Below are positions 1 through 28,252 of a DNA stretch of 64,000 bases, piece after piece. The stretch is taken from the NCBI GenBank assembly GCA_000384615.1, contig ARQU01000004.1, positions 1-64,000 on the forward strand, given 5' to 3'. The notes under the pieces were generated by a model that was not told the origin of the DNA, searched no databases, and saw only the letters and a program-made list of their open reading frames with translations. The DNA is from an alpha proteobacterium SCGC AAA536-G10. GTDB taxonomy: Bacteria > Pseudomonadota > Alphaproteobacteria > Puniceispirillales > Marisalimonadaceae. A program made the translations under genes and the position numbers. How positions within the stretch are numbered: position 1 is the first letter of the stretch; each line of letters starts with the position of its first letter.

Positions 1-95
1 GGCTTTTTACCCATTAAATATGACTTTACTGCAGGACCATAAATTAGGTCATTAGACCTTAAAAAACTAAATGTTTGGGATAAAAAATCACCATC
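1..95. repeat. Left arm of a perfect 95-bp inverted repeat inside phaC
   Basis: The reverse complement of 1-95 equals 11085-11179 base for base. The match stops at 95/96, where phaC reads ATG-GAT and the other copy reads ATT-GAT. It reaches the window edge, so its true outer length is unknown. Either recombination arms or an assembly-graph overlap at a contig end would produce this. Confidence 0.97.
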
Positions 96-1262
96 CATAA
101 AACCAAGATCATCAATTTGATCTTTAATTGTATTTAAATACTCATCTGAAACAAATATTGATAAATCACCTGGATCTTCAAAATCAGTAAGAGTAGTAAA
201 AAAAGATGCTGACTTAATATATTCTAATTTTCTTGCATTTAGATAACTCAATCCTGTAGCTAATAGTGTGCCTCCAATGCAATAACCGATTGAATTTATT
301 AAATCTACAGAATAAAACCTTCTAGTTTGTTCAATAGCGTCCAGTAAACCATCTTTAAGATAATCATCATAACCTATTTCAGAATGACTGCTGTCAGGAT
401 TAACCCAAGACATTAAAAAAACTGGAATACCCTTGCTCAATAAAAATTTAATAAAACTATTTTCTGGTTTTAGATCTAAAATGTAAAATTTATTTATCCA
501 GGGAGGAATTATTAATATTGGTATTTGATGTGATATTTCTTGAGTTGGTTTATAGTAAATTAATTGATATAACTTATTTTCATAGATTACGGATCCTTCG
601 GCATTAGCAATATTTTTCCCTATCTCAAATGCAGTTTCATCAGTAAGAGAGACATTAAATTCACCATCATTCTTTTCAAGATCATCAACTAAATTTTCTA
701 ATCCATTCACTAACGACTGACCCTTAGTTTCCATAGCCTCTTGAAGTGCGTCTGGGTTTGTCATTAGAAAATTTGTGGGAGAAAAAAACTCCAGCATTTG
801 CTTTGTAAAAAAAGTAATTTGTTTTTGCTCAGGATGACTAAGACCATCTATTCCCGTAATAGTTTCCTGAATTATATCTGAAGAAGTAAGATATTGTTGC
901 TTTATCATTTTAAAATATGGATTTTCTTCCCACGTAACACTTCTAAAGCGTTTATCATTTTTTTTTGAATTATTATTTTCTTGCTTGAGAAAATATCTTT
1001 GGACATCTGACCACGTTTCTAAAGATGATTTGTAATACTTAACTTGGTTTTCTATTAATTTAGAAGGGTTTGAAAGTATTTCAGAAAAATATTTAGCTGC
1101 AGCTTTATAGTAAAGATCTTGATTTGGTTGAGTTATTTGTTGCTTCTTAGATTTAGATGCTATTATAAATACTAATCTTTTTGTAAGAACATCAACTTTT
1201 TCTAAATTTTTTTTGAGTTCATCAAAATCAAAATTTTCGTATTGATTTTTATTATCCTTCAA
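1..1262 (-). CDS. phaC: Class I poly(3-hydroxyalkanoate) synthase PhaC, N-terminal part (cut by window edge)
   Basis: Polymerises 3-hydroxybutyryl-CoA into PHB at the granule surface. About 420 codons are present. The frame runs off the left edge without a stop, so the C-terminus is missing here. The nucleophile motif GYCIGG lies at about residues 326-331, with Cys328 encoded at 279-281, close to the position in other class I synthases. The start is a TTG at 1260-1262: the frame is closed by a stop just upstream and AAAGG sits 8 bases before it. The catalytic Asp and His are absent from this part; matching sequence containing both lies at 11085-11690. The gene is divergent from phaZ across 73 bases. 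The last 95 bases are an exact inverted copy of 11085-11179. Confidence 0.93.
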   Translation of the reverse strand, partial: MKDNKNQYENFDFDELKKNLEKVDVLTKRLVFIIASKSKKQQITQPNQDLYYKAAAKYFSEILSNPSKLIENQVKYYKSSLETWSDVQRYFLKQENNNSKKNDKRFRSVTWEENPYFKMIKQQYLTSSDIIQETITGIDGLSHPEQKQITFFTKQMLEFFSPTNFLMTNPDALQEAMETKGQSLVNGLENLVDDLEKNDGEFNVSLTDETAFEIGKNIANAEGSVIYENKLYQLIYYKPTQEISHQIPILIIPPWINKFYILDLKPENSFIKFLLSKGIPVFLMSWVNPDSSHSEIGYDDYLKDGLLDAIEQTRRFYSVDLINSIGYCIGGTLLATGLSYLNARKLEYIKSASFFTTLTDFEDPGDLSIFVSDEYLNTIKDQIDDLGFMDGDFLSQTFSFLRSNDLIYGPAVKSYLMGKK

Positions 1263-1335
1263 TTTATTTGCCTTTGTGAGTTTTTAATCATAATGTTATA
1301 ATAAGTTAACTAGTTAATTTTTTAAAGGGGTAATA

Positions 1336-2571
1336 ATGTTATCGCCAACACAATCTTATGATCTTTTTGAAATTAACAAACAGTATTATCAGTGGCTTGC
1401 GTCTTCAACTAGAACATTTTGGAACAATCCTATATTTGGGTTGCTTCCAAGTCCATTGCCCCCTGCCTTTGCTGCGTGGGGAAAGGTAACAGAGCATTCA
1501 TTATCTAGAATATCTTCAAAACCAGATTGGGGTATTTCTTCATATATTTCTGGAAATAAAGAATATTATGTTAATGAAAAAATTATAATGGATTTTCCTT
1601 TTTGTAATCTTATAAAATTTGAAAAAGAAAATAATAATAATAAAGAACGAAAAGTACTTATAATTGCTCCAATGTCAGGTCATTATTCTACTTTAGTTCG
1701 AAATACAGTTATATCACTTTTGCCTGATTGTGATGTATACGTTACCGACTGGAAAAATGCGAGAGATATTCCCAGTTCACATGGAAAATTTGATATAGAA
1801 GATTTTACAAAATATTTAATAAATTTCTTTAAAAAACTTGCTCCAAAATTAAATGTTATCGCAGTATGTCAACCAGCTCCATTAGCATTAGCAGCAACAG
1901 CTTTTCTTGCTAAAGAGAAAAAGTTTGTCCCATCTACTCTAACTTTAATAGGAGGACCTATTGATCCAGAAGCAAATCCAACAGCAGTCACTGATTTTGG
2001 AAACAAAATACAGATGGATAAATTAAAAAATACTATGACCATGTCAGTAGGTGTAAATTATAAAGGTGTTGGTAGGATGGTCTATCCTGGTATAATTCAA
2101 ATTTTATCTTTTTTATCAATGAACCCACAAACCCATCAAAAAGCTTTCCATGATCAGATTTTAAGAGAAATAAATGGTGAAGCATCTGAAGTAGATAGAC
2201 ACAATACTTTTTATGATGAATATTTAGCAGTTATGGATATGACAGCAGAGTTTTATCTATCCACAGTTGATAGAATTTTTAAAAACAGAGAAATCGCACT
2301 AAATAAATTTTCAATTGATAATAAAAAAATTGATATAGAAAATATTCAAAATACTGCTGTATTTATAATAGAAGGTGCTAATGACGATATTTCAGCACCT
2401 GGACAATGCTTAGCTGCAGTGAAATTATTGAAGAAACTACCAAAAAATAAAAAAATCTCTCATTTACAAAAAAATGCTGGTCATTATGGAATTTTTAGTG
2501 GAAAGGCATGGAGAAATGAAATAAAGCCAAAATTTTTAAAGTTTCTAGATAATAATAATTATGATTGTTAG
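1336..2571 (+). CDS. phaZ: Intracellular PHB depolymerase (PhaZ)
   Basis: Mobilises stored PHB inside the cell. The 411-residue length fits the intracellular depolymerase family (PhaZa type, about 400-430 residues). An alpha/beta-hydrolase core is visible: the segment VCQPAPLALAA places Cys178 at the nucleophile elbow, as in the Cys-type PhaZ of Ralstonia. Candidate acid and base residues are the Asp residues in EGANDDISAPG and the His of NAGHYGIF near the C-terminus. AGGGG lies 5 bases before the ATG. It is divergent from phaC and followed 116 bases later by phaB on the same strand. Synthesis, breakdown and precursor supply are thus clustered. Confidence 0.92.
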   Translation: MLSPTQSYDLFEINKQYYQWLASSTRTFWNNPIFGLLPSPLPPAFAAWGKVTEHSLSRISSKPDWGISSYISGNKEYYVNEKIIMDFPFCNLIKFEKENNNNKERKVLIIAPMSGHYSTLVRNTVISLLPDCDVYVTDWKNARDIPSSHGKFDIEDFTKYLINFFKKLAPKLNVIAVCQPAPLALAATAFLAKEKKFVPSTLTLIGGPIDPEANPTAVTDFGNKIQMDKLKNTMTMSVGVNYKGVGRMVYPGIIQILSFLSMNPQTHQKAFHDQILREINGEASEVDRHNTFYDEYLAVMDMTAEFYLSTVDRIFKNREIALNKFSIDNKKIDIENIQNTAVFIIEGANDDISAPGQCLAAVKLLKKLPKNKKISHLQKNAGHYGIFSGKAWRNEIKPKFLKFLDNNNYDC

Positions 2572-2687
2572 AACGTATGTTTTGGCTAATTTTTAATCAT
2601 TTTTTTTTAGTTTAATATAACATTAAATCCTTAGTTTACCATTTTAGTATTTACCTTTAATGAATGTATCAAATTGAGGTTTGATAA

Positions 2688-3458
2688 ATGATTAATATGA
2701 ATAATTTGCCATCTGATAATAATAAAGACTACCTGGTTGGAAAAGTTGCTATTGTAACTGGAGGTACTAGAGGTATTGGAAAAGGTATATGCGAAATACT
2801 TAATCAAGCTGGTGCAAAGGTTATTGCTGGTTATGCAAAAGATGATAATCAAGCAAACATTTTTAAAACACAAACTAATATAGAAGTTTTGAAATGGGAC
2901 GTATCAAATCATAACTCTTGCATTGATGCTGTTGAACAAATAATAAAAACTTATGGGACTGTCTCTATTCTTGTAAATAACGCTGGTATTACAAGAGACA
3001 GAACTATAAAAAAAATGACCCCAAGTGATTGGCAGGAAGTAATTGATACAAATCTTGGATCTGTTTTCAATATGACTAAAGCTTGTTGGGAAGAAATGAC
3101 AGTTAGTAAGTTTGGAAGAATAATTAATATATCTTCAGTAAATGGACAAGCAGGACAATATGGTCAAATTAATTATTGTGCTGCAAAGGCAGGAATTGTT
3201 GGAATGACCAAAGCCATAGCGTTGGAAGGTGCCAGATATAATATAACAGCTAATACAGTTGCACCTGGTTATGTTGACACTGAAATGGTTGCCTCTGTAC
3301 CAGAAAATGTTTTAGAAAAAATTGTAAGCACAATTCCTGTGGGAAGATTAGGACATCCAATTGAGATAGCGCGAGCAGTTTCATTCCTAGCAAGGGAAGA
3401 CACACAGTTTGTAACTGGGTCAACTATCTCTATAAACGGTGGCCATCATATGTATTAA
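2688..3458 (+). CDS. phaB: Acetoacetyl-CoA reductase PhaB (SDR family)
   Basis: Reduces acetoacetyl-CoA to (R)-3-hydroxybutyryl-CoA, normally with NADPH, supplying the PhaC substrate. It is a classical 256-residue SDR. The nucleotide-binding motif TGGTRGIG lies near residues 23-30 and NNAG near residue 103. The catalytic triad is Ser150-Tyr163-Lys167, and the C-terminus has the usual SINGG. GAGG precedes the ATG by 8 bases. A FabG-type 3-oxoacyl-ACP reductase cannot be excluded from sequence alone, but the PHB cluster favours PhaB. No phaA thiolase is present in the window. Confidence 0.88.
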   Translation: MINMNNLPSDNNKDYLVGKVAIVTGGTRGIGKGICEILNQAGAKVIAGYAKDDNQANIFKTQTNIEVLKWDVSNHNSCIDAVEQIIKTYGTVSILVNNAGITRDRTIKKMTPSDWQEVIDTNLGSVFNMTKACWEEMTVSKFGRIINISSVNGQAGQYGQINYCAAKAGIVGMTKAIALEGARYNITANTVAPGYVDTEMVASVPENVLEKIVSTIPVGRLGHPIEIARAVSFLAREDTQFVTGSTISINGGHHMY

Positions 3459-3474
3459 TATTAAATTATAATTA

Positions 3475-3732
3475 CTAATGTTGAATATATCCGGCTTCGA
3501 TTGTTAAATTATCTTTAACATGTTTTTCAGGTGTCTTTATTATGTTATTAGGTCTTATTTCACTAAGAAAAACTGGAAGCGGTATTTCACCATTTTTAAG
3601 TTCGTCACCATTAACTAACTGATTAAACCTTTGGACTGAACCATAGCTTTCATTAATATAATACTCATCCAAGTTATATTGATTTACAATCTCAGTAACT
3701 TTTTTTTCAACAACAGAAACTTTAATAGACAT
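3475..3732 (-). CDS. Small hypothetical protein, 85 aa
   Basis: I do not recognise this protein. It is a soluble, mixed-charge 85-residue product with no cysteines, signal peptide or membrane segment. It carries a Pro-rich stretch (EIPLPVFLSEIRPNN) in the middle. GGAG placed 6 bases before the ATG argues that it is translated. It is convergent with phaB, whose stop lies 16 bases away, and is followed by the divergent adenylate cyclase gene. Location next to the PHB genes is the only hint of role. Confidence 0.6.
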   Translation of the reverse strand: MSIKVSVVEKKVTEIVNQYNLDEYYINESYGSVQRFNQLVNGDELKNGEIPLPVFLSEIRPNNIIKTPEKHVKDNLTIEAGYIQH

Positions 3733-3916
3733 ATTAACTCCAAATAAAATAAAAATAGACTTATATCAACACACAACGACAGTTTTCAACTAATGTTAAA
3801 GTTTAAACCCCAAATATTTTTAATTGCTTCATCAATGTACTTTATAAAAAATTTGATTAATTTTTAGACAAAAATGCTTATTGAATATTATCTTTTTTAC
3901 ATCTAACATAATTTTT

Positions 3917-5773
3917 ATGAGTTCTCCAGACATAGATCGCAAAATAGCAGTTATATTGGCCACTGACGTAGTTGGTTATAGCAAACATATGGAAAAAGAC
4001 GAGGATGCTACTCTAGCTAGTCTCAATGCCTGTAATAAAATTATAGAACCTCTGATAAAAAAACAAAAAGGTAGAATTTTTAATACAGGAGGCGACTCTG
4101 TTTTTGCAGAGTTTCCTAGTGCAGTCGCTGCAGTTAACACAGCTGTAGAGTTCCAAAAACAAATTAAAGCCCGTAATGATAATGACACTACAGAAGTAAA
4201 GCTAGAATACCGTATAGGTATTAATATGGGAGATGTGGTAAAGCAGGGTGATAAGAACCTGATGGGTGATGGTGTTAACATTGCAGCCAGATTAGAAGCT
4301 CTAGCTCAGCCATGTGGAATTACTATATCCAAAAATGTTTATGATCTAGTAGCAAATAAAACAAAGTATGAATTCAATGATTTAGGAATACAAAAAGTAA
4401 AGCAGAACCATTTCCATGCTTATGATCTATTATTAGACCCATCTCAAAAGAGAAAGGTTAAGACCCAATCATCCAATACAAAGCTTATAGCCATTATAGG
4501 AGGAGCTGTAGCTGCCGTCTTCATAGGTCTGTTCTTCTCAGGTGTCTTTGAAAAGGAAAATAAAATAGATAATGATAATGCAATTTCAACATTATCTATT
4601 CCTACTATTCTAGTCTATCCATTTGAAAATCTATCAAATGCAGACGATACTAAAGGTATAAGTCCTGCATTGACGGAAAGCATGATTTCAAGTCTTTCCA
4701 AATATATTGGTATTAGAGTTTTGTCTGGAACGACTAGCCAACATGCAAAAAAAAATAATTATTCAGAAACACAATTTAGAGATGAATATAACGCAGATTA
4801 TGTGATCAAGGGATCTATTCAAACAATTATAAATCAATCTAGATTGAATTTACAGTTAGTGGATTTAAAACAGAATAAAGTAGTTTGGTCTGATAAAGAG
4901 GAATTTGATTTAAAGGATATTTTTAAAGTTCAAGATAATATAGGGAATAAAATACTAAAACATCTCCAAGTAAAAGTAGTTACAGGATCAACTGGTGACA
5001 TATATGCAAAAAGAGTAAAAAATATTCAAAATTTGACTTTGGTTTTAAACTCGCGTGCTGAGTGGAGAAAATATACAATAGATGGTCATAAAAAATACCT
5101 TGAATATCAAGAACAATTAAGAAAAAATTTGGGACCAAAATCACCAGCTATATACAACGGTATGGCATGGGGAATTTATCAAAGAATAAGACTTGGTTTA
5201 TCAAAAGATAAAAAAAGCGATATAAAAAAATTAGTAGAATATTCTAAAGCTGATGTTGCTGCTTTTAAAGATCCAGGAGCATATGCATTAAGAGCATTGG
5301 TTGAATTTCGTTATGTTTCGAAAGATTGTGAAAAATCTAAATCATTTTTAAAGAAAGCTATTGATGCAGGTGGTTCAGTAGATGCTTTTTCAATTGCAGG
5401 TTCAATATACAAAAGATGTTCGGATTTAAAATCAGCAATTTCTTTTTACAAAAATGCATTGCAATTGGCTCCAAATGATAATGGATTTTTTATTACCAAA
5501 AATTTAATTGCTGCTTATTATCAAAACAATGACTTAGTTTCAATTGAACGTATAATAGCACCAAAATTAGACGTAAAAGATATTGATCCAGTAATGCTAG
5601 GGTTTTATTCGTATGTTCTTCTAACTAAAGGAAAAGATGAAGATGCCAAAAAGTTTTTCTTGAAAGCAAAAGAAAAAGGATTGACGAGAAAACGTCTAAG
5701 TTTGTTTGTTAATTATAAAAAAGTATTAGATGAATTTATTGAAAAATTAAAACCACTAGGGAGTTTAGATTAG
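3917..5773 (+). CDS. Class III adenylate cyclase with TolB-like and TPR-type C-terminal region
   Basis: Probably makes cAMP in response to an input sensed by its C-terminal half. Residues 1-170 form the cyclase catalytic domain: metal-binding Asp in ATDVVGYS and in GGDSVFAEF, and the Asn and Arg of NIAARLEA, so it looks catalytically complete. A membrane segment follows at about 190-210 (IAIIGGAVAAVFIGLFFSG). A TolB-like domain and helical TPR-type repeats make up the rest. I chose ATG 3917 over an upstream in-frame TTG at 3881 because the paralogue at 12844-14739 begins at the equivalent residue. No clear Shine-Dalgarno is seen. Its stop is 4 bases from the convergent ggt gene. Confidence 0.87.
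   Translation: MSSPDIDRKIAVILATDVVGYSKHMEKDEDATLASLNACNKIIEPLIKKQKGRIFNTGGDSVFAEFPSAVAAVNTAVEFQKQIKARNDNDTTEVKLEYRIGINMGDVVKQGDKNLMGDGVNIAARLEALAQPCGITISKNVYDLVANKTKYEFNDLGIQKVKQNHFHAYDLLLDPSQKRKVKTQSSNTKLIAIIGGAVAAVFIGLFFSGVFEKENKIDNDNAISTLSIPTILVYPFENLSNADDTKGISPALTESMISSLSKYIGIRVLSGTTSQHAKKNNYSETQFRDEYNADYVIKGSIQTIINQSRLNLQLVDLKQNKVVWSDKEEFDLKDIFKVQDNIGNKILKHLQVKVVTGSTGDIYAKRVKNIQNLTLVLNSRAEWRKYTIDGHKKYLEYQEQLRKNLGPKSPAIYNGMAWGIYQRIRLGLSKDKKSDIKKLVEYSKADVAAFKDPGAYALRALVEFRYVSKDCEKSKSFLKKAIDAGGSVDAFSIAGSIYKRCSDLKSAISFYKNALQLAPNDNGFFITKNLIAAYYQNNDLVSIERIIAPKLDVKDIDPVMLGFYSYVLLTKGKDEDAKKFFLKAKEKGLTRKRLSLFVNYKKVLDEFIEKLKPLGSLD
3929..4543 (+). repeat. Cyclase head, copy 1 (diverged inverted duplication)
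   Basis: This segment encodes the cyclase domain plus membrane helix. It pairs with 14116-14727 in opposite orientation. By hand count the proteins are about 88% identical over ~205 residues, while the DNA is only about 80% identical with many synonymous changes. It is an old, selected duplication rather than a recent one. Similarity ends just after the membrane helix. Confidence 0.85.
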
Positions 5774-5777
5774 TTAT

Positions 5778-7556
5778 TTAATTGCCAATAGCTATTCCCT
5801 CTCTTCTATGGTCAGATCCTCCATATAATTTATCATCTATATGAACAACATTTAATCCAGACGAAAAACTTCTTAATTTAACTTTATAGTTCATAGCTTC
5901 TAATGAGGGCAATAGCTTACCCATATAAGTATCTTTCTCTACGTAATAAGTTCCAAATTTATTTATTCCATGAGCTACCGATGCAGCTTCTTGGGCATTG
6001 TATTTCCAATCAATCATTGAAATTATAGCATTTGCTACATATCCAATAATATTACTTCCACCAGGACTTCCTAAAATATAAACAGGTTTATTATTTTTTA
6101 AGATGATAGTAGGGGCCATGGATGATCTCGGTCTTTTACCAGGTTCAATATTATTAGCTATTTTTTTCCCATTTTTGAATGATTTAAATGAGAAATCAGT
6201 TAATTCATTGTTAAGTAAGAACCCACCATTAGTCATTAACCTAGAACCAAATCCGTTTTCAATCGTAGTTGTCATTGACAATGCATTTCCGTATTTATCT
6301 ACTATAGAAATATGTGATGTTGAAGGTAACTCGATCGAATGGTCTTTACCCCAATTTAGAGAGGATTTACGGATTAAATCACCAGCTTTAATTTTGTCTA
6401 TTTTATTTTTCCTATCAAGTAATTGTGCACGTTCATTTAAGTAATTTTTACTAACTAACTCGTTGATTGGAACATGTACATAGTCACTATCAGCCATATA
6501 AAGAGATCTATCTGCGAAAGCTAACCTTGAGGCATCTCCTATTAATCTCCATGTTTCAGGATTTTTAGGACTAAGTTTTGAAATATCATAACTTTCTATA
6601 ATTCCTAGTATTTGTGCAATTGTTAATGCGCCTGAAGATGGAGGACCCATTCCGCATACTTCATATTCTCTATATTTTGAACATACAGGCTCTCTTTGAA
6701 TTACCTTATAATCATGCATATCCTTAAGAGATAAAACTCCTGGATTTAGACTAGCATTGTTAACAGTTGCAACAATATCATTGGCTATAAAACCTTGATA
6801 AAAAACTTTCGATCCATCTTTTGCAAAAGCTTTGAGAGTATCTGCATAATTTTTGTTATAGTGAATATTTCCTGATTTTAACGGTTTATCATTTGGCAAA
6901 AAATAAGTTTTTGTATTCAAAAACTTACTCAAAGAACGTTTACTTCTTTTAACAGAAGAGCTAAGTTTTTTCGAAATAATGAAACCATTTTTAGATAAAT
7001 TAATGGCATCTTTAAATAGCAAAGACCAATCTGTTTTACCCCACCTTTTATATGCCTCTTCAAGCAAAGCTGGAGTGCCGGGGGTTCCGACAGATTTGCC
7101 TCCTACAACAGCATCAAAAAATTTTAATGGATTACCTTTAGTATCTTGAAATACATTTTCCTTGATTAAAAGTGGGGCTGTTTCTCGACCATCTAGAGTT
7201 ATGACTTCTTTTGTTTTATTATCAAAATAAACTAGAAAAGCACCACCACCAAGACCAGAGGATTCTGGCTCTACTAAACCCAAAACTAACTGTGCTGATA
7301 TCATCGCATCTGTAGCTGTTCCTCCATTTTTAAGTATCTTGGCAGCAATCTTGGAAGCCTGTATATTTGCTGTAACAACCATCCATTTATCAGAAATAAC
7401 TGGTTTGCCTTCTTTTTTTAATTTAAGAAAATGACTTTCCTTATTAAGTTTATAATTTTCTGAATTGTTTAGATCAGATTTTTGATTGCTATTCGCTGCA
7501 AAGGGGAATAATAAAAAAATAAACACTATTAATTTAAAATTAATAAAAAACATCAT
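5778..7556 (-). CDS. ggt: Gamma-glutamyltransferase (periplasmic glutathione hydrolase)
   Basis: Cleaves the gamma-glutamyl bond of glutathione and related peptides in the periplasm and is autoprocessed into two subunits. The precursor begins with a signal peptide (hydrophobic run ending PFAANS). The autocleavage Thr lies in LPSTSHISIVD, matching the family's TTH motif, and downstream come PRSSMAPT and GSPGG. GMGPPSSGALT is also conserved. Two adjacent ATGs at 7556 and 7553 follow GGAG. An in-frame codon at 7619 would overlap the upstream gene and place 21 charged residues before the signal peptide, so I reject it. Confidence 0.92.
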   Translation of the reverse strand: MMFFINFKLIVFIFLLFPFAANSNQKSDLNNSENYKLNKESHFLKLKKEGKPVISDKWMVVTANIQASKIAAKILKNGGTATDAMISAQLVLGLVEPESSGLGGGAFLVYFDNKTKEVITLDGRETAPLLIKENVFQDTKGNPLKFFDAVVGGKSVGTPGTPALLEEAYKRWGKTDWSLLFKDAINLSKNGFIISKKLSSSVKRSKRSLSKFLNTKTYFLPNDKPLKSGNIHYNKNYADTLKAFAKDGSKVFYQGFIANDIVATVNNASLNPGVLSLKDMHDYKVIQREPVCSKYREYEVCGMGPPSSGALTIAQILGIIESYDISKLSPKNPETWRLIGDASRLAFADRSLYMADSDYVHVPINELVSKNYLNERAQLLDRKNKIDKIKAGDLIRKSSLNWGKDHSIELPSTSHISIVDKYGNALSMTTTIENGFGSRLMTNGGFLLNNELTDFSFKSFKNGKKIANNIEPGKRPRSSMAPTIILKNNKPVYILGSPGGSNIIGYVANAIISMIDWKYNAQEAASVAHGINKFGTYYVEKDTYMGKLLPSLEAMNYKVKLRSFSSGLNVVHIDDKLYGGSDHRREGIAIGN

Positions 7557-7572
7557 ATTCTCCAGATTTACT

Positions 7573-8421
7573 TTAGTAAATTTTTTGTGATTTAATCCAA
7601 TTTTGAATAATGTGGCCAATTACTACCATACGAATTACCTGAGTCTCTTTAAATACATAGTCCTTAACTGTTGAATAAGCTTTTGGTGATAAATTATGAT
7701 TAAAAAATTCTTTAAACTCAATTTGTAGACCATTTTGACTTAGTTCAGTTTTAGTTTTTAATAATAAGGATTGAAGTTTATCAGTCTCGTAAAGAGGCTT
7801 AAGTTTTTTATTTATTATTCTGAGAAAAGTTGGCCAATGAGCTAAATGTCTCCATAACGTGGCAACATGTGATTTTTTTCCATTTGGAGCACATAAGCTA
7901 TTAACATCGCATATTAAATCCCATGTATTATCATCAATTTGTTCTCTATGCATTAGATTTGGGAGTGTAGGCCAGTTGATCTTTTCACTGCTTTTAGTAT
8001 TAACAGAAACTTTAGGAAAATTTAATTTAATCATAGCGTGCAAAGCCACCATATTCATACCATTAGAGCGATTATAAGCTTTTAAAATTATTGAAATTTG
8101 CTCCCAATCTTGTCTAGTTAACTCACAATTTTTAAGTTCATCACTTTCTAAAGATGATGGAAGGGGCAAGACAATCTTGGATATGATAGCTTTTAACTTA
8201 TTTTCCACTTTTTCAGTTTGGTAAATTGGTTTAGCCATAGCCCAAATTGTTTCGAGGCTATTGTCAATATCTGCTAAACCTCTCCATATAGAAGTAACAA
8301 GAGGTATTTTCATTGTATGTCTTATATCAAGAAAAATATCCGCAATAACTCCAACTGCTTCATTTTCGTCTAAAGCTGAAACTGGATCATATGAAATATC
8401 AGAACTCATGGTGGCATACAT
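7573..8421 (-). CDS. DehI-like (halocarboxylic acid dehydrogenase family) protein
   Basis: The protein resembles the DehI 2-haloacid dehalogenase fold. It has two tandem helical half-repeats, each with an (S/T)LWR.LA-type motif (TSIWRGLADI near residue 44 and TLWRHLAHWP in the second half), plus an AYNRSNG segment similar to DehI. In my hand alignment, the position of DehI's catalytic Asp (before the LANWP motif) is Leu here, so dehalogenase activity is doubtful. It lies 8 bases downstream of a TfdA-like dioxygenase on the same strand, suggesting a shared transcript. No strong ribosome-binding site is visible, and Met5 at 8409 is an alternative start. Confidence 0.6.
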   Translation of the reverse strand: MYATMSSDISYDPVSALDENEAVGVIADIFLDIRHTMKIPLVTSIWRGLADIDNSLETIWAMAKPIYQTEKVENKLKAIISKIVLPLPSSLESDELKNCELTRQDWEQISIILKAYNRSNGMNMVALHAMIKLNFPKVSVNTKSSEKINWPTLPNLMHREQIDDNTWDLICDVNSLCAPNGKKSHVATLWRHLAHWPTFLRIINKKLKPLYETDKLQSLLLKTKTELSQNGLQIEFKEFFNHNLSPKAYSTVKDYVFKETQVIRMVVIGHIIQNWIKSQKIY

Positions 8422-8429
8422 TTTTCATT

Positions 8430-9332
8430 TTAGGCTTTTAATCTCACCTCATTTGAAAATGGGCCAAGAACTGGCACCTTTCCTTCTACAGTACCTCTGA
8501 TCATTGCCCTTCTATATTTTGAATAATCATAAGGTATTACCCTATGCAATAAAACTCTATTATCCCACATAATTAAATCATTTCTTTCCCATGAATGTTT
8601 ATAACAAAACTTATCTTGGCTTATGTAATCTACAAGCCAACCGTGCAGTTTCTTTCCTTCTTCTAAGCCCATTCCTCCAATTTCAAGGCTTGTGTTAGAT
8701 GTGAAATAAATAGATTTTTTATAGTTCCTATCTGGGTGAACTCTGATAACTGGATGAGATACAGGAGGAAAATTTGATTTTTCTTCATAAGTTAACTCAG
8801 GAAGACCTGGTTCTAACCTTCTGATATCATTATACGAATGTACTTGATGAAGAGGTTCTAATAGTTGTTTTTTATCATCTGATAAATTTTCATAAGCTAA
8901 TAACATATTGGAAAATTCGGTCTGTCCACCTTTTGCTTCATGAGGAAGTGTTTCCTGACCATATAAGATGGAAAAAATAGAAGGATAATATCTATAGGAA
9001 CTATCTGTATGCCATCTTGAGTTATTTTTTTGCAGTATTACTCTTTGATCGTTTGGAGATAAATGTTCCCCGTCTTCAGAAACATTTGACACATTAAATA
9101 TTTCAATTTTTCCTTTAGTTTTATCTTTTTCTGGATAAGCCTCTAAATCACCAAAGTTTTTTGTAAATTTTGCTAAACTATTTCCATCTAAATTTTGATT
9201 TTTAAAACATATAAAATGCTTATCTTGCATTGTTTTTTTTAAGAATTCTATTTCAGCAAATTTGATTTCCTTTGAGCAATCAAAATTATTAATCTCTACT
9301 CCAAAATCTTTACTTAAATTTTTGATGTCCAT
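8430..9332 (-). CDS. TauD/TfdA family Fe(II)/2-oxoglutarate dioxygenase
   Basis: A 2-oxoglutarate-dependent oxygenase of about the usual family length (300 residues). The facial triad is visible: HTD in SRWHTDSSYR near residues 108-114 and the distal His in LLHRVIPYDY near the C-terminus. This is followed by RRAMIRGT, whose Arg normally binds 2-oxoglutarate. It looks closer to TfdA-type (aryloxyalkanoate) members than to taurine dioxygenase, but the substrate cannot be read from sequence. GAGGAG lies upstream of the ATG. It is cotranscribed with the DehI-like gene and divergent from the VOC gene. Confidence 0.85.
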   Translation of the reverse strand: MDIKNLSKDFGVEINNFDCSKEIKFAEIEFLKKTMQDKHFICFKNQNLDGNSLAKFTKNFGDLEAYPEKDKTKGKIEIFNVSNVSEDGEHLSPNDQRVILQKNNSRWHTDSSYRYYPSIFSILYGQETLPHEAKGGQTEFSNMLLAYENLSDDKKQLLEPLHQVHSYNDIRRLEPGLPELTYEEKSNFPPVSHPVIRVHPDRNYKKSIYFTSNTSLEIGGMGLEEGKKLHGWLVDYISQDKFCYKHSWERNDLIMWDNRVLLHRVIPYDYSKYRRAMIRGTVEGKVPVLGPFSNEVRLKA

Positions 9333-9459
9333 TTAAATCAGCTCCTCATCTAATTTATAGAATATTTTTATTCAATTTGTTCTTTTTGTAAACATTTGTT
9401 AGTTTTGATTTTTTATTTTGATTGATTATAAGAGCAATAATTTTGTAAGGATTACTAAA

Positions 9460-10296
9460 ATGAATTGGACAATTTTGAATGTTTCCATCCCTGTTCATGA
9501 TTTAGACAAATCAAAAGAATTTTATGAGATGCTTCTCGGCATTACAGAAGACCAGGAAGAGTTATATCAACCTTTATTTCAAAATGAAGAAAGTGTTTTT
9601 TTAGGAGACAAAGGTTTTGGATTAAGATTATTTAAGCCAAAACCAGATCTTCTAGTTTCAGATAATATCCAGAGTAGAAGGAGTTTTGTAACTCTTTTAG
9701 TTGAAAGTATTGACCATATTCAAAGAAATTTAGAGGCTGAAAATATAAAGTTTAAAATTAATGACTTTAATAATGGTAATCCTATCAAAAGTATTTTTGT
9801 GCAAGAACCATCATTAAATCTTATACATTTAGTTGAAAATAAAAATGGTTTTAATGATAACTTAAATGGATGGAATATAGGTCTTGATTGGGGTATTCAT
9901 CACATGAATCTTGAATCTTTAAACGTAAGAGACTCGATAGAATTTTTTTCTAACATTTTAGGAATGAAAGAAGGTAGATGGGTTGCTCCAGTAAATAAGG
10001 GAGATTTTAGTATAGACCCATCTGAGTTGGCTATATTACCATTATCAAATAATAATAGAGGTTTACATGTAATTAAACCTGATGATGGGTTTGGATATAG
10101 AAACAACTTTGCACATAATCCTTCAATTGGAGGCCATCCAGCTTTTACAATAAATGATTTATCAAATTTAACAGCTAAATTAGATAAGGAAAAAATATTA
10201 TATTCAGATGCTAAAGTTTACGCAATGCCAGGCTTCCACCAAATTTATTTATATGACATTAATGCTAATATGTTAGAAATTAATCAAGCAGTATAA
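9460..10296 (+). CDS. Two-domain VOC (glyoxalase/extradiol dioxygenase-like) protein
   Basis: Contains two vicinal-oxygen-chelate modules: one starting at NVSIPVHDLDKSKEFYE and a second starting at IHHMNLESLNVRDSIEFF at about residue 145. Metal-ligand candidates are the His residues of GIHHMN, the His in MPGFHQIYLYD and the Glu of MLEINQ, all in the second half. The first half looks degenerate. This two-module layout is typical of extradiol dioxygenases and glyoxalase-like enzymes; the substrate is unknown. ATG 9460 is preceded by AAGG at 9 bases, and I prefer it to an upstream TTG at 9418. The SDR gene follows after 29 bases. Confidence 0.75.
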   Translation: MNWTILNVSIPVHDLDKSKEFYEMLLGITEDQEELYQPLFQNEESVFLGDKGFGLRLFKPKPDLLVSDNIQSRRSFVTLLVESIDHIQRNLEAENIKFKINDFNNGNPIKSIFVQEPSLNLIHLVENKNGFNDNLNGWNIGLDWGIHHMNLESLNVRDSIEFFSNILGMKEGRWVAPVNKGDFSIDPSELAILPLSNNNRGLHVIKPDDGFGYRNNFAHNPSIGGHPAFTINDLSNLTAKLDKEKILYSDAKVYAMPGFHQIYLYDINANMLEINQAV

Positions 10297-10325
10297 TTTT
10301 AGGAAAGCTCGCATTTCATATTATC

Positions 10326-11690
10326 ATGGTCAAAGTATATAAAAACGTTTGTATTACAGGTGCTGGAAATGGCATTGGAAGAGCTATTGCTATTGCCATG
10401 AGTAATGAAGGTTACAACGTCGTCTGTGCAGATATTGACTTGAAACAAGCTAAAGATACTCTTGATTTTATATTGAATAAACAAGGATCTGGGATAGCAG
10501 TAGAAACTGACGTAACAAAAGCTTTTGACATCAAGAATATGATCAACTCAACTGTAGATGAATTTGGTAGCTTGGATATTTTAGTAAATAATGCAGGTGT
10601 AACTAGGACATCTAACATTATGGATTTAACCGAAAAGGATTGGTATTGGATTAATGACGTTAATGCCAAAGGTACATTCTTTTCTTTGCAGGCTGCTGCG
10701 AAACAAATGATTAAACAAAATCAAGGTGGTAGAATAATAAATATGGCTTCAGTTGGTGGCAAAGGTTTTGTAGATGTATCTAATGCAATTTATGCAGCCA
10801 GTAAAGGTGCCGTAATAAGTTTAACAAAAACTGCTGCACAAGAATTAGCAAAATATGAAATTACTGTTAATTCTATTTGTCCAGGCATTACCCATACAAA
10901 TATTTTATCTGGCATTGTCAAAAAAAGAGCCTTAGAACAGAATAAATCAGAAGAAGAAATTATGAGACATTATGCAAGAGATATACCTTTGAAAAGACCA
11001 AATGATCCAGAAGATATTGCAGAAATGGTTGTTTTTTTATCTTCTAAGGGTGCAAGAAATATTTCAGGTCAATCTTATAATATTGATGGTGATTTTTTAT
11101 CCCAAACATTTAGTTTTTTAAGGTCTAATGACCTAATTTATGGTCCTGCAGTAAAGTCATATTTAATGGGTAAAAAGCCTCCACCATTTGACCTGTTATA
11201 TTGGAATAGTGATTGTACAAATTTGCCTGGGAAAATGGCCCTAGAATATTTAGAAAAATTTTATAAAAATAACGATTTCTCAAAAGGTAAGCTAGAAGTT
11301 TTAGGTGAAAAAGTTAATTTAGAACAAATTTCGCAACCTATTATAGCTATTGGAACTTTTAATGACCATATAGCTCCATGGAAATCATCTTTTAACGGTT
11401 TGAGTAAAACCTCTGGAGAAAAAGTATTTATTCTTGCAGGAAGCGGACATATTGCAGGAATAATTAATCCAGAACATTCTAATAAATACGGGTATTGGAT
11501 CAATAATGAAAATTATTCAACTCCTGAAAAATGGTTCAATAGTTCTATTAATAAAAATGGTTCTTGGTGGAATGAATGGTATGAATGGAAAAAACAATTT
11601 TTAGCAGAGAAAATAATTTCAACTAAAATGATTGGAATTACTGAAATAGAACCTGCTCCAGGACGTTATGTAAAAAAGAAAAATAAATAA
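10326..11690 (+). CDS. SDR oxidoreductase joined in frame to the C-terminal third of PhaC (probable chimera)
   Basis: Codons 1-253 are a nearly complete short-chain dehydrogenase: TGAGNGIG near residue 10, NNAG, the MASVGG serine, the YAASK catalytic pair, and the family ending GQSYNIDG. From codon 254 (11085) the reading frame continues as 201 residues of PHB synthase, including LRSNDLIYGP, LLYWNSD, the catalytic Asp of FNDHIAPW and His of GSGHIAG. An SDR would normally stop a few residues after NIDGG. The join coincides exactly with the end of the 95-bp inverted repeat, so this is more likely a rearrangement or assembly junction than a bifunctional enzyme. The synthase part lacks its nucleophilic Cys. 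Confidence 0.85.
   Translation: MVKVYKNVCITGAGNGIGRAIAIAMSNEGYNVVCADIDLKQAKDTLDFILNKQGSGIAVETDVTKAFDIKNMINSTVDEFGSLDILVNNAGVTRTSNIMDLTEKDWYWINDVNAKGTFFSLQAAAKQMIKQNQGGRIINMASVGGKGFVDVSNAIYAASKGAVISLTKTAAQELAKYEITVNSICPGITHTNILSGIVKKRALEQNKSEEEIMRHYARDIPLKRPNDPEDIAEMVVFLSSKGARNISGQSYNIDGDFLSQTFSFLRSNDLIYGPAVKSYLMGKKPPPFDLLYWNSDCTNLPGKMALEYLEKFYKNNDFSKGKLEVLGEKVNLEQISQPIIAIGTFNDHIAPWKSSFNGLSKTSGEKVFILAGSGHIAGIINPEHSNKYGYWINNENYSTPEKWFNSSINKNGSWWNEWYEWKKQFLAEKIISTKMIGITEIEPAPGRYVKKKNK
11085..11179. repeat. Right arm of the perfect 95-bp inverted repeat
   Basis: Identical to the reverse complement of 1-95. Its left boundary is exactly the SDR/PhaC junction. The right end is set only by the window edge on the other copy. 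Confidence 0.97.
11085..11690 (+). other. phaC: PhaC C-terminal coding segment (201 codons plus stop)
   Basis: This segment encodes the part of class I PHB synthase that is missing from the gene at 1-1262. It is in the correct frame to follow codon 389 of that gene, which would give a 590-residue protein with Cys328 and the Asp and His supplied from here. It sits 84 bases upstream of phaP, matching a phaC-phaP-phaR order. I infer that this is the true 3' end of phaC, separated from its 5' end by inversion or by an assembly error. Confidence 0.8.
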
Positions 11691-11691
11691 T

Positions 11692-11742
11692 TTGCAGTTG
11701 CAGCATTTTTCTATTGACAATTTCTGCAATGCGGCATATGTA
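11692..11742 (+). promoter_or_regulatory. phaP promoter with TGC-rich putative PhaR operator
   Basis: A TTGACA box at 11714-11719 is followed by a 17-base spacer and TATGTA at 11737-11742. The spacer contains CTGCAATGCGGCA, and TTGCAGTTGCAGCA lies just upstream at 11692-11705. PhaR of Paracoccus is known to repress phaP by binding TGC-rich sites over its promoter. The match here is by inspection only. Confidence 0.6.
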
Positions 11743-11774
11743 TCTAATATATTAACTAAATTACGGAGTTCTTT

Positions 11775-12197
11775 ATGTTTACACTAGACGAATACACAAA
11801 AAATTTTGAGAAGTTTTCTACTCAAAACCCTTTTATGTCATCACATTCCTTAGATGGTATACTTGAATTCAATTCAAAGTTATCAAAAATAGCATTGGAC
11901 ACATTTAAAAAAAATACAGAGCTTAGCCAAGAATGGTCTAAAGAAACATTAAATTCACTAGAAACATTTACTAAGACACATAAAAATCCAAGTGACTATT
12001 CAAAAGTAATAAACGATTTTGTTACTCAACAAACACAATCTTCTCCAAAACATATTGCTGAGTTTGCTGAAATAGCAAAAAAGGCTCAATTGGATACTAT
12101 AGATTTATATATGTCTGCTGGAAAAGAAATGAACGAAGAAATGACTAAAACAGCAAAAAAAACAACAAATAAAACTGTTGTGACATCATCAGAATAA
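11775..12197 (+). CDS. phaP: Phasin (PHB granule-associated protein)
   Basis: Coats PHB granules and limits their size. The 140-residue product is almost entirely predicted amphipathic helix, rich in Lys, Glu, Thr and Ser, with no cysteine. It ends in a Lys/Thr-rich tail (TAKKTTNKT), as is common in phasins. GGAG lies 6 bases before the ATG. It has its own strong promoter with TGC-rich elements upstream, and phaR follows 74 bases downstream after a large hairpin. Assignment rests on composition, length and neighbours rather than on a catalytic motif. Confidence 0.82.
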   Translation: MFTLDEYTKNFEKFSTQNPFMSSHSLDGILEFNSKLSKIALDTFKKNTELSQEWSKETLNSLETFTKTHKNPSDYSKVINDFVTQQTQSSPKHIAEFAEIAKKAQLDTIDLYMSAGKEMNEEMTKTAKKTTNKTVVTSSE

Positions 12198-12204
12198 TTT
12201 ATCA

Positions 12205-12245
12205 TAGTTACTAGTAAAGAATATAATATTCTTTACTAGTAACTA
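12205..12245 (+). terminator. 18-bp perfect hairpin between phaP and phaR
   Basis: Left arm 12205-12222 and right arm 12228-12245 are perfectly complementary around a 5-base ATAAT loop. Each arm contains the palindrome TTACTAGTAA. Only a short, broken T-run (GTTTTGATTTT) follows, so it may be a partial terminator, an mRNA-stabilising stem at the phaP 3' end, or a double operator for a dimeric repressor. Confidence 0.55.
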
Positions 12246-12271
12246 GTTTTGATTTTACGAGGTGATAAATC

Positions 12272-12838
12272 TTGTCTGAAGAACAAATATTGATAACCCG
12301 ATATTCAAGCAGACGTTTATATAATACCAATTCAAGTGAATATGTTACACTTGAGGAAATATCAGCACTTATTAAAAATGGTAAAAATATAAAAATCATT
12401 GACAAGCAAACTGGTGAAGATTTGACTAAACAATATCTTCTTCAAATAATATCCGATATTGAAAACAAAGATGGTAACGTACTTCCAGAGAATATGTTGA
12501 CTGAAATAATTAAAAGTTATAGCAATGCAACAGAAAAAATTATGCCAGACATGGTAGCCAAAACATTTGAGTTTTATCAAAACCAGCAAAGTGAATTTTT
12601 AAAACACCTCAACACTAAAAGTGTCAATTCATTCACGGACAAATCCAGTTCAGAATTAATGCAAGATTGGCAATCAAAGCAATTTGGATTGATGAAAGAT
12701 TTTTTAAACCCCTGGGATAAAAAAGAAACTACTGAAAATTCCTCTAACGAAAAATCATCACTTAGTGATAAAGACGAAATTGAAATTTTAAAAAAACAAA
12801 TGTCTGAACTTAAAGAAGAGTTAAATAAGAAAAAGTAA
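12272..12838 (+). CDS. phaR: PHB synthesis repressor PhaR
   Basis: Transcriptional repressor that also binds PHB. When granules form it leaves DNA and phasin is made. The N-terminal 60 residues carry the family's signature (RYSSRRLYNT then SEYVTLEEI and GEDLTKQYLLQII). A helical middle region follows, and the C-terminus is a charged coiled coil (DEIEILKKQMSELKEELNKKK). The start is TTG 12272 with GAGG at 9 bases. Its stop is 6 bases from the convergent cyclase gene. TGC-rich sequence upstream of phaP is the likely target. Confidence 0.93.
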   Translation: MSEEQILITRYSSRRLYNTNSSEYVTLEEISALIKNGKNIKIIDKQTGEDLTKQYLLQIISDIENKDGNVLPENMLTEIIKSYSNATEKIMPDMVAKTFEFYQNQQSEFLKHLNTKSVNSFTDKSSSELMQDWQSKQFGLMKDFLNPWDKKETTENSSNEKSSLSDKDEIEILKKQMSELKEELNKKK

Positions 12839-12843
12839 ATCTT

Positions 12844-14739
12844 TTATTCAAAACCATATTTTTTCAAATTATTAGTAATATATGGATAGGTATTTAGATG
12901 TTGATTTTGCTTGGTAAATGCAAATTTTATTTTAGATAAATGATTTTCTTTTAAAAACTTTTTAACAAAATCTAAATGCTTTTTAGCAATATCAAATTTT
13001 TTCAAAGAATCATAAGCTAAACCTAAATGTAAATTCCACCAAACAAAGTTTTTATGTTGTAAAGGCTCTAAAACACGGATAACATTTTCTTTTTCTCCAC
13101 TTGTTTGATAACATTGAGCTAACAAATAGTTATCCCAAGTCGCATAATTTCCAATATCCAATTCATAAGCTTTTTTACCTATTTCCCAACATCCTCTTTG
13201 AAATTGACATCTATTTTTTTTAACTATTTGAAATTTTTCAGTACTGGCAAACACATCCTCTTTCTCACAATCTCCACCGTAAGCTAAACTATATCCAATT
13301 TTACCAAGTAAATGAGGTCTGTCGCCTGCTAATTTATAAGCTTTTTCAGCAACATTAAACATTTCTTCCCAATTATTATTATAGAATTCAATCTGCAATT
13401 TTGCAGCATAACCAAAAGCATGCTCAGGATCTAATATTAAACCTTTATCAATTTCTTTAGAAGCATCATCTAACATATATTTGAATTTATCAGTCATTGA
13501 AAAGGAGGAATGTTGTGCTCTTTTTCGATCAGCTAGCCATATCCATGCATCAGCATAGTTCGGATCTTTTTTTATTGAATTTTGCAAACATTCTATTGCT
13601 TTTGGATTTAAAGTTGGGGTAACAGCACCTCTAGCAAAATTTATACACTCATAAATTGATATATCATCTGTACTGGAGGAAGCAATTTTTTTGTTTATAT
13701 CCTTTGACAATACAGCCCCTGCTCCGACTAATTCATTTATAATTTGTTTAATAATCTCATTTTGTAATTTAAATATATTTTTACCTGTTAAATCTCTGTC
13801 ATACGTTTCTGACCAAATATTTGATATATTTTTTCCATCAATTAGATCTACTTTTACCCGCAGCATATTATCAATCTGCATGATGTTTCCATCAACTAGA
13901 TAAGATGCGTTAGTATTGTTAGATACTTCTTTTAAATTCTCAGGTGTTTTCTTCAAGTTAAGTACATTTATCATTTTAGATGATTTTGTAAGCTTACTTC
14001 CTAAATCTTGAGATATACCTAATGCTAGCAATGTTTCCTTTTTTGTTTCACTCAGACTCTTGAATGGCAAGATAACTATTTTACTACTGTCAAGTTTTTG
14101 TTCTGTATCTAAAATACCTGAGAAAAATAATCCTATGAAAACAGCAGCGATAGCCCCACCTATCATAGCTATTAACTTCGTGTTAGATGATTGTGTTTTA
14201 AGCTTTCTCTTTTGTGATGGATCCAATAACAGATCGTAGGCATGAAACTGGTTCTGTTTGACCTTTTGTATTCCTAGATCATTAAACTCATACTTTGTCT
14301 TATTGGCCACTAAATCATAAACATTTTTTGATATGGTTATACCACCAGATTGTGCAAGGGCTTCTAATCGCGCGGCAATATTTACACCATCACCCAAGAG
14401 GTTATCACCCTCTTTAACAACGTCACCCATATTGATACCAATACGATATTCTAGTTTAATATCTGTTGTATCTTTCTCATTCCGATCCTTAATCTGCTTT
14501 TGGAACTCAACTGCTGTGTCAACTGCAGCAACAGCACTTGGAAACTCGGCAAATACAGAGTCTCCACCTGTATTAAAAATACGTCCTTTTTGTTTTTTAA
14601 TAATGGTTTCTATAATCTTATTACATTCACGAAGACCTCGTAATGTAGCATTCTCGTCTCTTTCCATGTGTTTGCTATAGCCAACTAAGTCAGTGGCAAA
14701 TATTACTGCTATTTTACGGTCAATATCATTATTTGACAT
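12844..14739 (-). CDS. Class III adenylate cyclase with TolB-like domain and TPR repeats (paralogue of 3917-5773)
   Basis: The N-terminal 205 residues are about 88% identical to the first cyclase. They include the catalytic Asp residues (ATDLVGYS, GGDSVFAEF), the NIAARLEA motif and a single membrane helix at about 190-210. The remainder is quite different: a TolB-like domain (KIVILPFKSLS and following), then TPR-type repeats with several cysteines (such as CEKEDVF and CQFQRGCWEIGKKAYEL). AAGGAG sits a few bases before the ATG, giving an unambiguous start. It is convergent with phaR. The shared head with different tails suggests two inputs controlling the same output. Confidence 0.9.
   Translation of the reverse strand: MSNNDIDRKIAVIFATDLVGYSKHMERDENATLRGLRECNKIIETIIKKQKGRIFNTGGDSVFAEFPSAVAAVDTAVEFQKQIKDRNEKDTTDIKLEYRIGINMGDVVKEGDNLLGDGVNIAARLEALAQSGGITISKNVYDLVANKTKYEFNDLGIQKVKQNQFHAYDLLLDPSQKRKLKTQSSNTKLIAMIGGAIAAVFIGLFFSGILDTEQKLDSSKIVILPFKSLSETKKETLLALGISQDLGSKLTKSSKMINVLNLKKTPENLKEVSNNTNASYLVDGNIMQIDNMLRVKVDLIDGKNISNIWSETYDRDLTGKNIFKLQNEIIKQIINELVGAGAVLSKDINKKIASSSTDDISIYECINFARGAVTPTLNPKAIECLQNSIKKDPNYADAWIWLADRKRAQHSSFSMTDKFKYMLDDASKEIDKGLILDPEHAFGYAAKLQIEFYNNNWEEMFNVAEKAYKLAGDRPHLLGKIGYSLAYGGDCEKEDVFASTEKFQIVKKNRCQFQRGCWEIGKKAYELDIGNYATWDNYLLAQCYQTSGEKENVIRVLEPLQHKNFVWWNLHLGLAYDSLKKFDIAKKHLDFVKKFLKENHLSKIKFAFTKQNQHLNTYPYITNNLKKYGFE
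14116..14727 (-). repeat. Cyclase head, copy 2 (diverged inverted duplication)
   Basis: Counterpart of 3929-4543 in opposite orientation, one codon shorter (the KNLMGDG loop of copy 1 is NLLGDG here). The two heads enclose about 9.6 kb including the PHB and dioxygenase genes. Homology ends immediately after the membrane helix. Confidence 0.85.
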
Positions 14740-14829
14740 GTACTAGTATCTCCTTATTATTTTAGTACAGTTTCATCTATTAACATGAACTAATTCATTT
14801 AAAAATGATATAAATTTTTGGTTAAAAAA

Positions 14830-16425
14830 ATGACTATTATAAATAAAATTTTTGGGTCTTTTAAATTTTCATTTATTCCGCCATTAATGATTTATCTCGC
14901 TGCTGGAGTGTCAGGAATTACAAATATAGTTGGTCTTTTTTTTGTAAAAGAATATTTGGATTTGTCGGCAGTATTTCTTGCTGGATTAGGTTTTTGGGCT
15001 GGACTTCCTTGGGTATTAAAAATGCCATTGGGACACTTGGTTGACATTCTTTGGAAGTTTAAATCAATTCTTGTAATACTAGGAGCCCTAGTAATGGCAG
15101 CTAGTAGCATAATTATGTATTGTCTTATTCAGTATAAATCGGAAATGATTTTACTACTAAACGCTGAAACATGGTTTGTTATTTCATCTTTATTAGCTCC
15201 GATTGGTTTTGTTTTACAAGACGTAGTTGCGGACGCTATGACGGTTGAAGCAGTTCCAAAAATAGATGATAATGGTGAAGAAATAGATTTTAAAGATCTG
15301 AAGTCTATGAATGTTTCTATGCAACTTCTTGGTAGAGTATCAATTATTTTTGGAACACTACTTGTATCGATGCTCAATTTAATAGTTTTTGCTGACTCTT
15401 CAGAAATGACTGAGTTGGAAAAAATTAATGCATATGGAAAAATTTATTTATACTCTTTAATTGTTCCACTTATTTCGATTTCAGGAATTTTTCTAGCTTA
15501 TATAAACAAACAAAATAAATTAAATTCTCTTATTAAAAATGGCATTGCTCCCCTTAAGGCAAAGGGAATGGTATTTATTAGTCCAGAACTAACAAAACCA
15601 AACCTATTAATTATTATCGGTTCAATTATTTTTGTTTTATTCACATTATTTATAGGTACTTCTAAGATCCAGTTTTCTCAAGAAATTGTCTTCGTGGGAT
15701 CATTTGGAATAATATTATTGTTACTCATTAAATTATCTAATGAGTTAGATACAAAAGCAAAAAGAATGCTGTTAGGGACAGCAATTATTATTTTCGTGTT
15801 TAGAGCGATGCCTGGCGTTGGTCAAGGAGGCAGTTGGTTTGAAATAGATGTATTAAAATTCGACCAAGAATTTCTGTCATTACTTGGATTAATAGCATCT
15901 TTTCTAACAATTTTTGGTATTTTTATTTTGAGACCTCTCATGGAAAAATCTTCTATGTCTAGACTGATTATTATTCTCTCTGTAGCGGGCTCAATTTTTA
16001 TATTACCTTCTATTGCAATGTATTATGGGTTTCATGAATATACATCTAACCTAACTGGCGGAATAGTGGATGAGCGCTTTATAGCTATATTTAATACTGC
16101 TTTAGAAAGTCCACTTGGTCAGGTGTCGATGATACCAATACTCGCATGGATAGCACAATCAGCACCTAGTCACCTCAAAGCAACCTTTTTCGCAATACTT
16201 GCAAGTTTTACTAATTTAGCACTTTCAGCTAGTAATTTAGGAACTAAATATTTGAATCAAATTTTTGTGATCACACGAGAAGTAAAGACCGAGCAAGGTG
16301 AAATAAAAATTCCTGCAGATTATTCTGAACTTGGAATTCTATTAATTATTGTATGTTTATTGACACTAATAGTTCCTATTATAATTACTTTTGTAATAAA
16401 AAAATTAAGATTAATTTCTTATTAA
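14830..16425 (+). CDS. MFS-type membrane transporter (possibly folate/biopterin transporter-like)
   Basis: A polytopic inner-membrane protein of about 531 residues with roughly 12 hydrophobic segments. The early motif GLPWVLKMPLGHLVD resembles the loop 2-3 region of BT1 (folate-biopterin) transporters, but this is a resemblance only and the substrate is unknown. A long loop near residues 145-170 is acidic. ATG 14830 is chosen over TTG 14818; neither has a good ribosome-binding site. It is divergent from the cyclase, and its stop codon directly abuts that of the convergent YeiH-type gene. Confidence 0.6.
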   Translation: MTIINKIFGSFKFSFIPPLMIYLAAGVSGITNIVGLFFVKEYLDLSAVFLAGLGFWAGLPWVLKMPLGHLVDILWKFKSILVILGALVMAASSIIMYCLIQYKSEMILLLNAETWFVISSLLAPIGFVLQDVVADAMTVEAVPKIDDNGEEIDFKDLKSMNVSMQLLGRVSIIFGTLLVSMLNLIVFADSSEMTELEKINAYGKIYLYSLIVPLISISGIFLAYINKQNKLNSLIKNGIAPLKAKGMVFISPELTKPNLLIIIGSIIFVLFTLFIGTSKIQFSQEIVFVGSFGIILLLLIKLSNELDTKAKRMLLGTAIIIFVFRAMPGVGQGGSWFEIDVLKFDQEFLSLLGLIASFLTIFGIFILRPLMEKSSMSRLIIILSVAGSIFILPSIAMYYGFHEYTSNLTGGIVDERFIAIFNTALESPLGQVSMIPILAWIAQSAPSHLKATFFAILASFTNLALSASNLGTKYLNQIFVITREVKTEQGEIKIPADYSELGILLIIVCLLTLIVPIIITFVIKKLRLISY

Positions 16426-17484
16426 TTAATGTTGTATCATAGGTAATATTAAAAGAAGATACATTACACTAACAACTCCAACAGTTGTAGAAGCGGCAAA
16501 TCCAATTATTAATGGCTTTGCTCCTAATGATGACATACCCTTAAGGTTGGTTTGTAGACCTAAAGCAACCATTGCAAATAAAATACAATAAATCGATATC
16601 TGTTTAGATATTAATAAAAATGTTTCCCAATAACGAACCAAGTTACTATCCATGATTAATTGATCACCAAAAGTTCTAAAAATAGATAATAAAATAAATC
16701 CAAATACAAACATTGGAAAAAAATCTTTAATTGATTTTTTTACATCAACTGGTTGATTTCTATTGTAGAGATAAGCAATAAGTGGAATTAAAATTATCAA
16801 AAATGAGTTTCTTAATAACTTTGTTGTCATTGCCGAATTTAAAGCTTCCTGGGTATTGTATAATTCAGAATAAATAACACTTGCAGCACTAACTTGGGCT
16901 GTGTCGTGTATAGCTGTACCTAAAAATATACCTGCAAAATCTGGAGATAGATTGAAATAATAATTAGCTAAATAAGGGTAAAAAAATACTGCTAAAATTC
17001 CAAATAAAGTTACTATTCCTACTGCATAACTAGTTTCATCTTTGTTAGATTTAATTATTGAAGAAGTGGCTATAACTGCTGTTACACCGCATATACAAGT
17101 GCCCATTGTAATTAAATACCCTAAATTACTGGGAATATTAAACATTTTACATAAAAACATTATTATTAAAAATGCTATTATAATATTTAATAAAACTAAA
17201 ATAATTGCAGTAGATCCGTAATCTAAAAGTTCAGTTAAACTTAAACTAAGACCAAGAATAGCTATTCCAATTCTTAATAATTTTTTTAAACAAAAACTAA
17301 TAAAAGGAAGTGCATTTTCATTAATAGAAAAAAAATTTCCTATAATTAATCCGGTAAAAATACACAGGAAGGCAGACGAAATTAGTAAATTACTAGATGA
17401 AAGAAATTTACTTAATAAGACTGATAAAATCACTATGGCACTTATTGTTGCAATGCCAAAAATATTCTGTCTAAAAATAAACAT
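16426..17484 (-). CDS. YeiH/YadS-family (UPF0324) putative sulfate-exporter-like membrane protein
   Basis: About ten hydrophobic segments over 352 residues. Family landmarks are visible: the GTCICGVTAVIATSSII segment, TLFGILAVFFYPYL, and the diagnostic GIFLGTAIHDTAQVSAASVIY. Members are annotated as putative sulfate exporters, but biochemical support is thin. It is transcribed away from the 76-residue ORF gene behind it and is exactly convergent with the MFS-type gene. I see no sulfur-metabolism genes next to it. Confidence 0.85.
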   Translation of the reverse strand: MFIFRQNIFGIATISAIVILSVLLSKFLSSSNLLISSAFLCIFTGLIIGNFFSINENALPFISFCLKKLLRIGIAILGLSLSLTELLDYGSTAIILVLLNIIIAFLIIMFLCKMFNIPSNLGYLITMGTCICGVTAVIATSSIIKSNKDETSYAVGIVTLFGILAVFFYPYLANYYFNLSPDFAGIFLGTAIHDTAQVSAASVIYSELYNTQEALNSAMTTKLLRNSFLIILIPLIAYLYNRNQPVDVKKSIKDFFPMFVFGFILLSIFRTFGDQLIMDSNLVRYWETFLLISKQISIYCILFAMVALGLQTNLKGMSSLGAKPLIIGFAASTTVGVVSVMYLLLILPMIQH

Positions 17485-27899: not shown

Positions 27900-27916
27900 T
27901 TAAAAAGGAGTTTAAA

Positions 27917-28234: not shown

Positions 28235-28252
28235 AATTAGATAATAAAAGTA

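Follow-up and report, generated by a model that had tools for sequence, protein, structure and literature searches.

Contig ends produced by de Bruijn assemblers of the SPAdes type overlap by a fixed k-mer length, and some centres run assemblies at k = 25, 55 and 95. Lists that include a k of 95 in single-cell SPAdes workflows found no usable confirmation in the literature searched; the accessible part of one report on marine single cells gives SPAdes with the '--careful' and '--sc' options and no k list, and retained contigs over 2,000 bases alone, unlike the assembly considered here (PMC6122165). Chimeras formed during multiple displacement amplification (MDA) have been described by Lasken and Stockwell in 2007 (PMC1855051). 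In that study, inverted joins are the main type (406 of 475), made through 2–21 nt of complementarity, and such complementarity is found in 93.5% of inverted joins under 10 kb and in 34.8% of those above.

The window analysed here, a stretch of 64,000 nucleotides, runs from the first base of a contig (C4) in a genome of 2.16 Mb and 148 contigs, so that the contig tip coincides with window base 1. Its first 95 bases (positions 1–95, minus strand) are the exact reverse complement of positions 11085–11179, as an earlier reading of the sequence alone (the 'sequence-only reading') had observed, and a search of the whole genome with this 95-base repeat returned these two places alone. Across the 63,906 start positions of the window no other exact inverted 95-mer was present, nor was any further exact inverted repeat of 25 bases or longer found in it. 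At the other tip of C4, which lies outside the window, positions 137662–137756 form an exact inverted 95-base repeat of positions 118098–118192, and both ends of this contig are therefore suspect.

The repeat falls within phaC, which is found in two pieces. The 5′ part (positions 3–1262, minus strand) consists of 420 codons reaching the contig tip, and is 99.8% identical to residues 8–427 of the PhaC protein of G004, the most similar of the genomes compared, in which the gene is an open frame of 597 residues. The 3′ part (positions 11085–11690, plus strand) comprises 201 codons and a stop, and is 98.5% identical to residues 397–597 of the same protein. The two pieces thus overlap by 31 residues, which bears out the earlier arithmetic whereby 389 codons of the left piece and the 201 codons of the right piece rebuild a class I PhaC of 590 residues. 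Both match the class I PhaC model TIGR01838 (532 positions), the left part at positions 3–363 with 447.8 bits and the right part at positions 329–531 with 249.8 bits; neither reaches the curated cut-off of 622.65 bits by itself. The Cys (in GYCIGG), Asp and His stretches that the same reading had placed in the rebuilt protein were seen in the two translations, and we take these three residues to be catalytic. When the left part was compared with named genomes, the top match among the best 80 of 590 confirmed loci was to a SAR116 cluster alphaproteobacterium, at 64% identity. A search of 40 genomes of the genus (this one included), many of which are incomplete, identified phaC in seven; in all six of the others it is a single open frame of 597–600 residues, with the native sequence across the position at which it is joined here.

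On the other side of position 11085 lies a gene for a short-chain dehydrogenase (SDR; positions 10326–11084, plus strand; PF13561) without its last residues, which reads in frame into phaC and so forms a 454-codon fusion. This SDR was found in 21 of the 40 genus genomes, again counting our own; all 20 of the other copies end in DGGLIPS (native ending GGLIPS), in place of which the window reads DGDFLSQTF. The SDR side of the junction matches G004 as far as position 11091 and the phaC side is common from position 11085, and the native sequences therefore share seven bases, GATGGTG (positions 11085–11091), as a microhomology at the join. A protein search of the same genome, in which 29 matches were listed (mostly to other dehydrogenases), revealed no second copy of the SDR–PhaC fusion. 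A query corresponding to positions 10900–11100 likewise matched the window alone within this genome, with no contig found to share a 95-base overlap with the SDR end.

The gene order in related genomes, a comparison that the sequence-only reading had proposed, indicates which of the two orientations is native. Positions 1–11091 of the window align backwards to positions 52312–41222 of contig C9 of G004 at 97.3% identity, and the sequence from position 11081 onwards aligns forwards from position 52214 of the same contig, in blocks that extend to 27469, from 28253 to 50718, and (in a short final block that stops at the end of the G004 contig) from 51266 to 51672. The join in the window is thus inverted with respect to the true genome as represented by G004, and the segment at positions 96–11084 is wrongly oriented relative to the sequence from 11180 onwards. 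From 11081 to 50718 the window is colinear with G004 except for an unaligned gap at positions 27470–28252; at that gap the G004 interval is the longer of the two, at about 2.4 kb versus 0.8 kb. The SDR gene and phaC were found together on one contig in three other genomes (G003, G004 and G039), and in all three the order is un-inverted relative to the window. Because related genomes carry this region uninterrupted and un-inverted, it appears to be an ordinary region rather than a genetic switch.

Mapping of the G004 flank showed that, in our own genome, the sequence natively adjoining the SDR end is a separate contig, C13. The final 9.9 kb of C13 match G004 at 96% up to the breakpoint, and its tip, read inward, is GGC TTG ATC CCA AGT TAA, which encodes GLIPS followed by a stop: the SDR ending that is missing from the window. 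Taken with the tip of C4 and the sequence at 11085, this means that one assembly holds the native continuation of phaC (as 95 bases), the native SDR ending and the chimeric join. C13 ends one base into the shared 7-mer and, in contrast to C3 and C6 (described below), carries no 95-base overlap, which counts against a chimeric origin.

The inversion geometry relative to G004 is clean, as would be expected if a real and possibly switchable inversion between inverted repeats had interrupted phaC and shut down PHB synthesis. We nevertheless consider such an event highly improbable, since the natural inverted repeat is seven bases alone (the 95 bases being one sequence printed twice) and since 95-base tips are also found elsewhere in the genome. 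In addition, the reciprocal join, leading from the C13 neighbour to the 5′ half of phaC, was found in none of the 40 genus genomes (our own included) with up to three mismatches, a result that informs on close relatives and on our own assembly, given that the native SDR junction, searched as a control at the same tolerance, was itself found in only four of the 40 (each with zero mismatches, and not in our own genome). The chimeric join was found in one of the 40, our own, by means of a degenerate DNA pattern for the protein motif at the junction that is not exhaustive, as it requires Ile where some relatives have Val. The switchable form of this inversion was rejected: by alignment with G004, the flanks in native order have seven bases in common rather than flanking inverted repeats, and the relatives did not display both orientations (chimeric 1/40, reciprocal 0/40, figures that speak mainly to close relatives). 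A Pfam scan of 10 of the 16 listed open reading frames of positions 1–16000 revealed no recombinase family. A more restricted version, in which a rare true inversion between the pair of GATGGTG sequences disables PHB synthesis in some cells of this species and was by chance present in the sequenced cell or cells, strikes us as extremely improbable.

Evidence that the tip of C4 is one case among several came from the remainder of the assembly. The terminal 95 bases at both ends of 18 of the 148 contigs (C1–C17 and C29; 36 tips) were searched against their own genome, and at least 11 of the 36 recur elsewhere, a number that is a lower bound because 40 of 187 first-look candidates were scored. 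Eight of these recur inverted in the same contig (the starts of C1, C4, C5, C11, C12 and C13, and the ends of C2 and C4) and three in other contigs (the start of C3 in C11, the end of C6 in C12, and the end of C15 in C18). The shared length is exactly 95 bases in nine of the 11, a fixed length that agrees with the earlier suggestion that an exact 95-base match at the contig edge fits a k of 95; it is 93 bases in C11 and at least 369 at the start of C13. Among the matches listed, 25 of the 36 tips have no second place, which counts against a chimeric origin, and four tips absent from that listing, when searched anew against the genome, gave self-matches alone. No 41-mers were shared among the 400-base contig tips compared and window positions 1–12000 besides the window's own repeat. 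The repeat at the start of C13 is an exact inverted copy of C13 positions 16600–16968 and is longer than the 95-base class. Separately, 23 sampled short contigs of this genome, which lay outside the tip test, read as N throughout.

A stable real duplication of the phaC segment in this strain would likewise place two exact copies in the sequence, but we regard it as exceedingly unlikely, because one copy ends exactly at a contig tip, because repeats of exactly 95 bases are present at nine of the 36 tips tested, and because phaC is one unbroken frame in every other genus genome in which it was found.

Two of the recurring tips have a second repeat beside them. In C12, the contig's own tip repeats positions 26227–26321 and the tip of C6 repeats positions 26134–26228; in C11, the contig's own tip repeats positions 16685–16777 and the tip of C3 repeats positions 16592–16686. 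The paired repeats have two bases in common where they meet, in C11 as in C12. We read both joins as having the same three-part layout as the C4 tip, position 11085 and C13, in which a chimeric join would be accompanied by the native continuation as the contig's own tip and by the true neighbour as another contig. Of the eight tips that recur inverted in the same contig, the start of C4 and that of C5 were the two compared with relatives. C5 is a second case of the same artefact: the two parts of its first 6.2 kb are un-inverted in all four relatives (G004, G034, G035 and G039), and against G004 the two alignments overlap by approximately 8 bases at the join.

We believe that the explanation that best fits these observations, with a probability of roughly 0.97, is that an inverted chimera arising from DNA amplification, followed by assembly at k = 95, produced the split phaC. 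The amplification step, most likely single-cell MDA, would have joined the SDR end to the middle of phaC through GATGGTG. One phaC 95-mer would thereby have gained a second way in, from the chimeric SDR end as well as from the native 5′ half of phaC. A de Bruijn assembler running at k = 95 might then take the chimeric edge through, so that the native one would stop as a tip with that 95-mer on it. Correctly arranged, the sequence would run from C13 through the SDR gene (reversed) and onward to the 5′ half of phaC, followed by the sequence from 11085 onwards. The sequence-only reading had likewise preferred a chimera at the contig end to a real inversion, and that preference is strengthened by the position of base 1 at the tip, by the un-inverted order in relatives and by the presence of the missing partner at the tip of C13. 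The tips resemble the k-mer overlaps at de Bruijn contig ends in that they repeat a fixed 95 bases of another edge; they differ in that C13 lacks the overlap and in that the assembler and its k are here deduced from the contigs. With respect to the inverted MDA chimeras of Lasken and Stockwell (PMC1855051), the likeness extends to the inversion, the short microhomology (seven bases, within the 2–21 nt described), the joining of near-neighbour segments and the presence of several such joins in one genome (eight of the 36 tips recur inverted within their own contig, with relatives checked beyond C4 for C5). The present case is seen through an assembly rather than in reads, and its breakpoints are separated by about 11 kb, a little beyond the commonest class of under 10 kb, which counts against such an origin given the fewer complementary joins above 10 kb in that study.

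In the best reading of these data, the true phaC is intact, encodes one class I PhaC and lies upstream of both phaP and phaR, in the position that the sequence-only reading had assigned to the rebuilt gene. The phasin gene phaP, the true neighbour of phaC, lies at positions 11775–12197 (plus strand) and is colinear in G004, although its match to PF09361 is weak (27.6 versus a cut-off of 24.9); it is followed by the regulator gene phaR (positions 12272–12838, plus strand), which scores above the cut-off of TIGR01848. Genes for phaZ (TIGR01849) and a phaB-type protein (TIGR01829) occupy positions 1336–3458. Most likely, then, the organism has an intact phaC–phaP–phaR run divergent from the phaZ and phaB-type genes. 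The same region also contains a pair of paralogous genes, at positions 3881–5773 (plus strand) and 12844–14739 (minus strand), of which some 600 bases of the 5′ parts cross-match the G004 copies at 81%; they presumably resemble class III cyclase plus repeat-domain proteins.

With several inverted joins at contig tips in this assembly, gene order near the tips and fusion proteins encoded there are not to be trusted, the suspect products here being the 454-codon SDR–PhaC fusion and the truncated phaC. The lineage itself most likely possesses an ordinary, intact PHB cluster.
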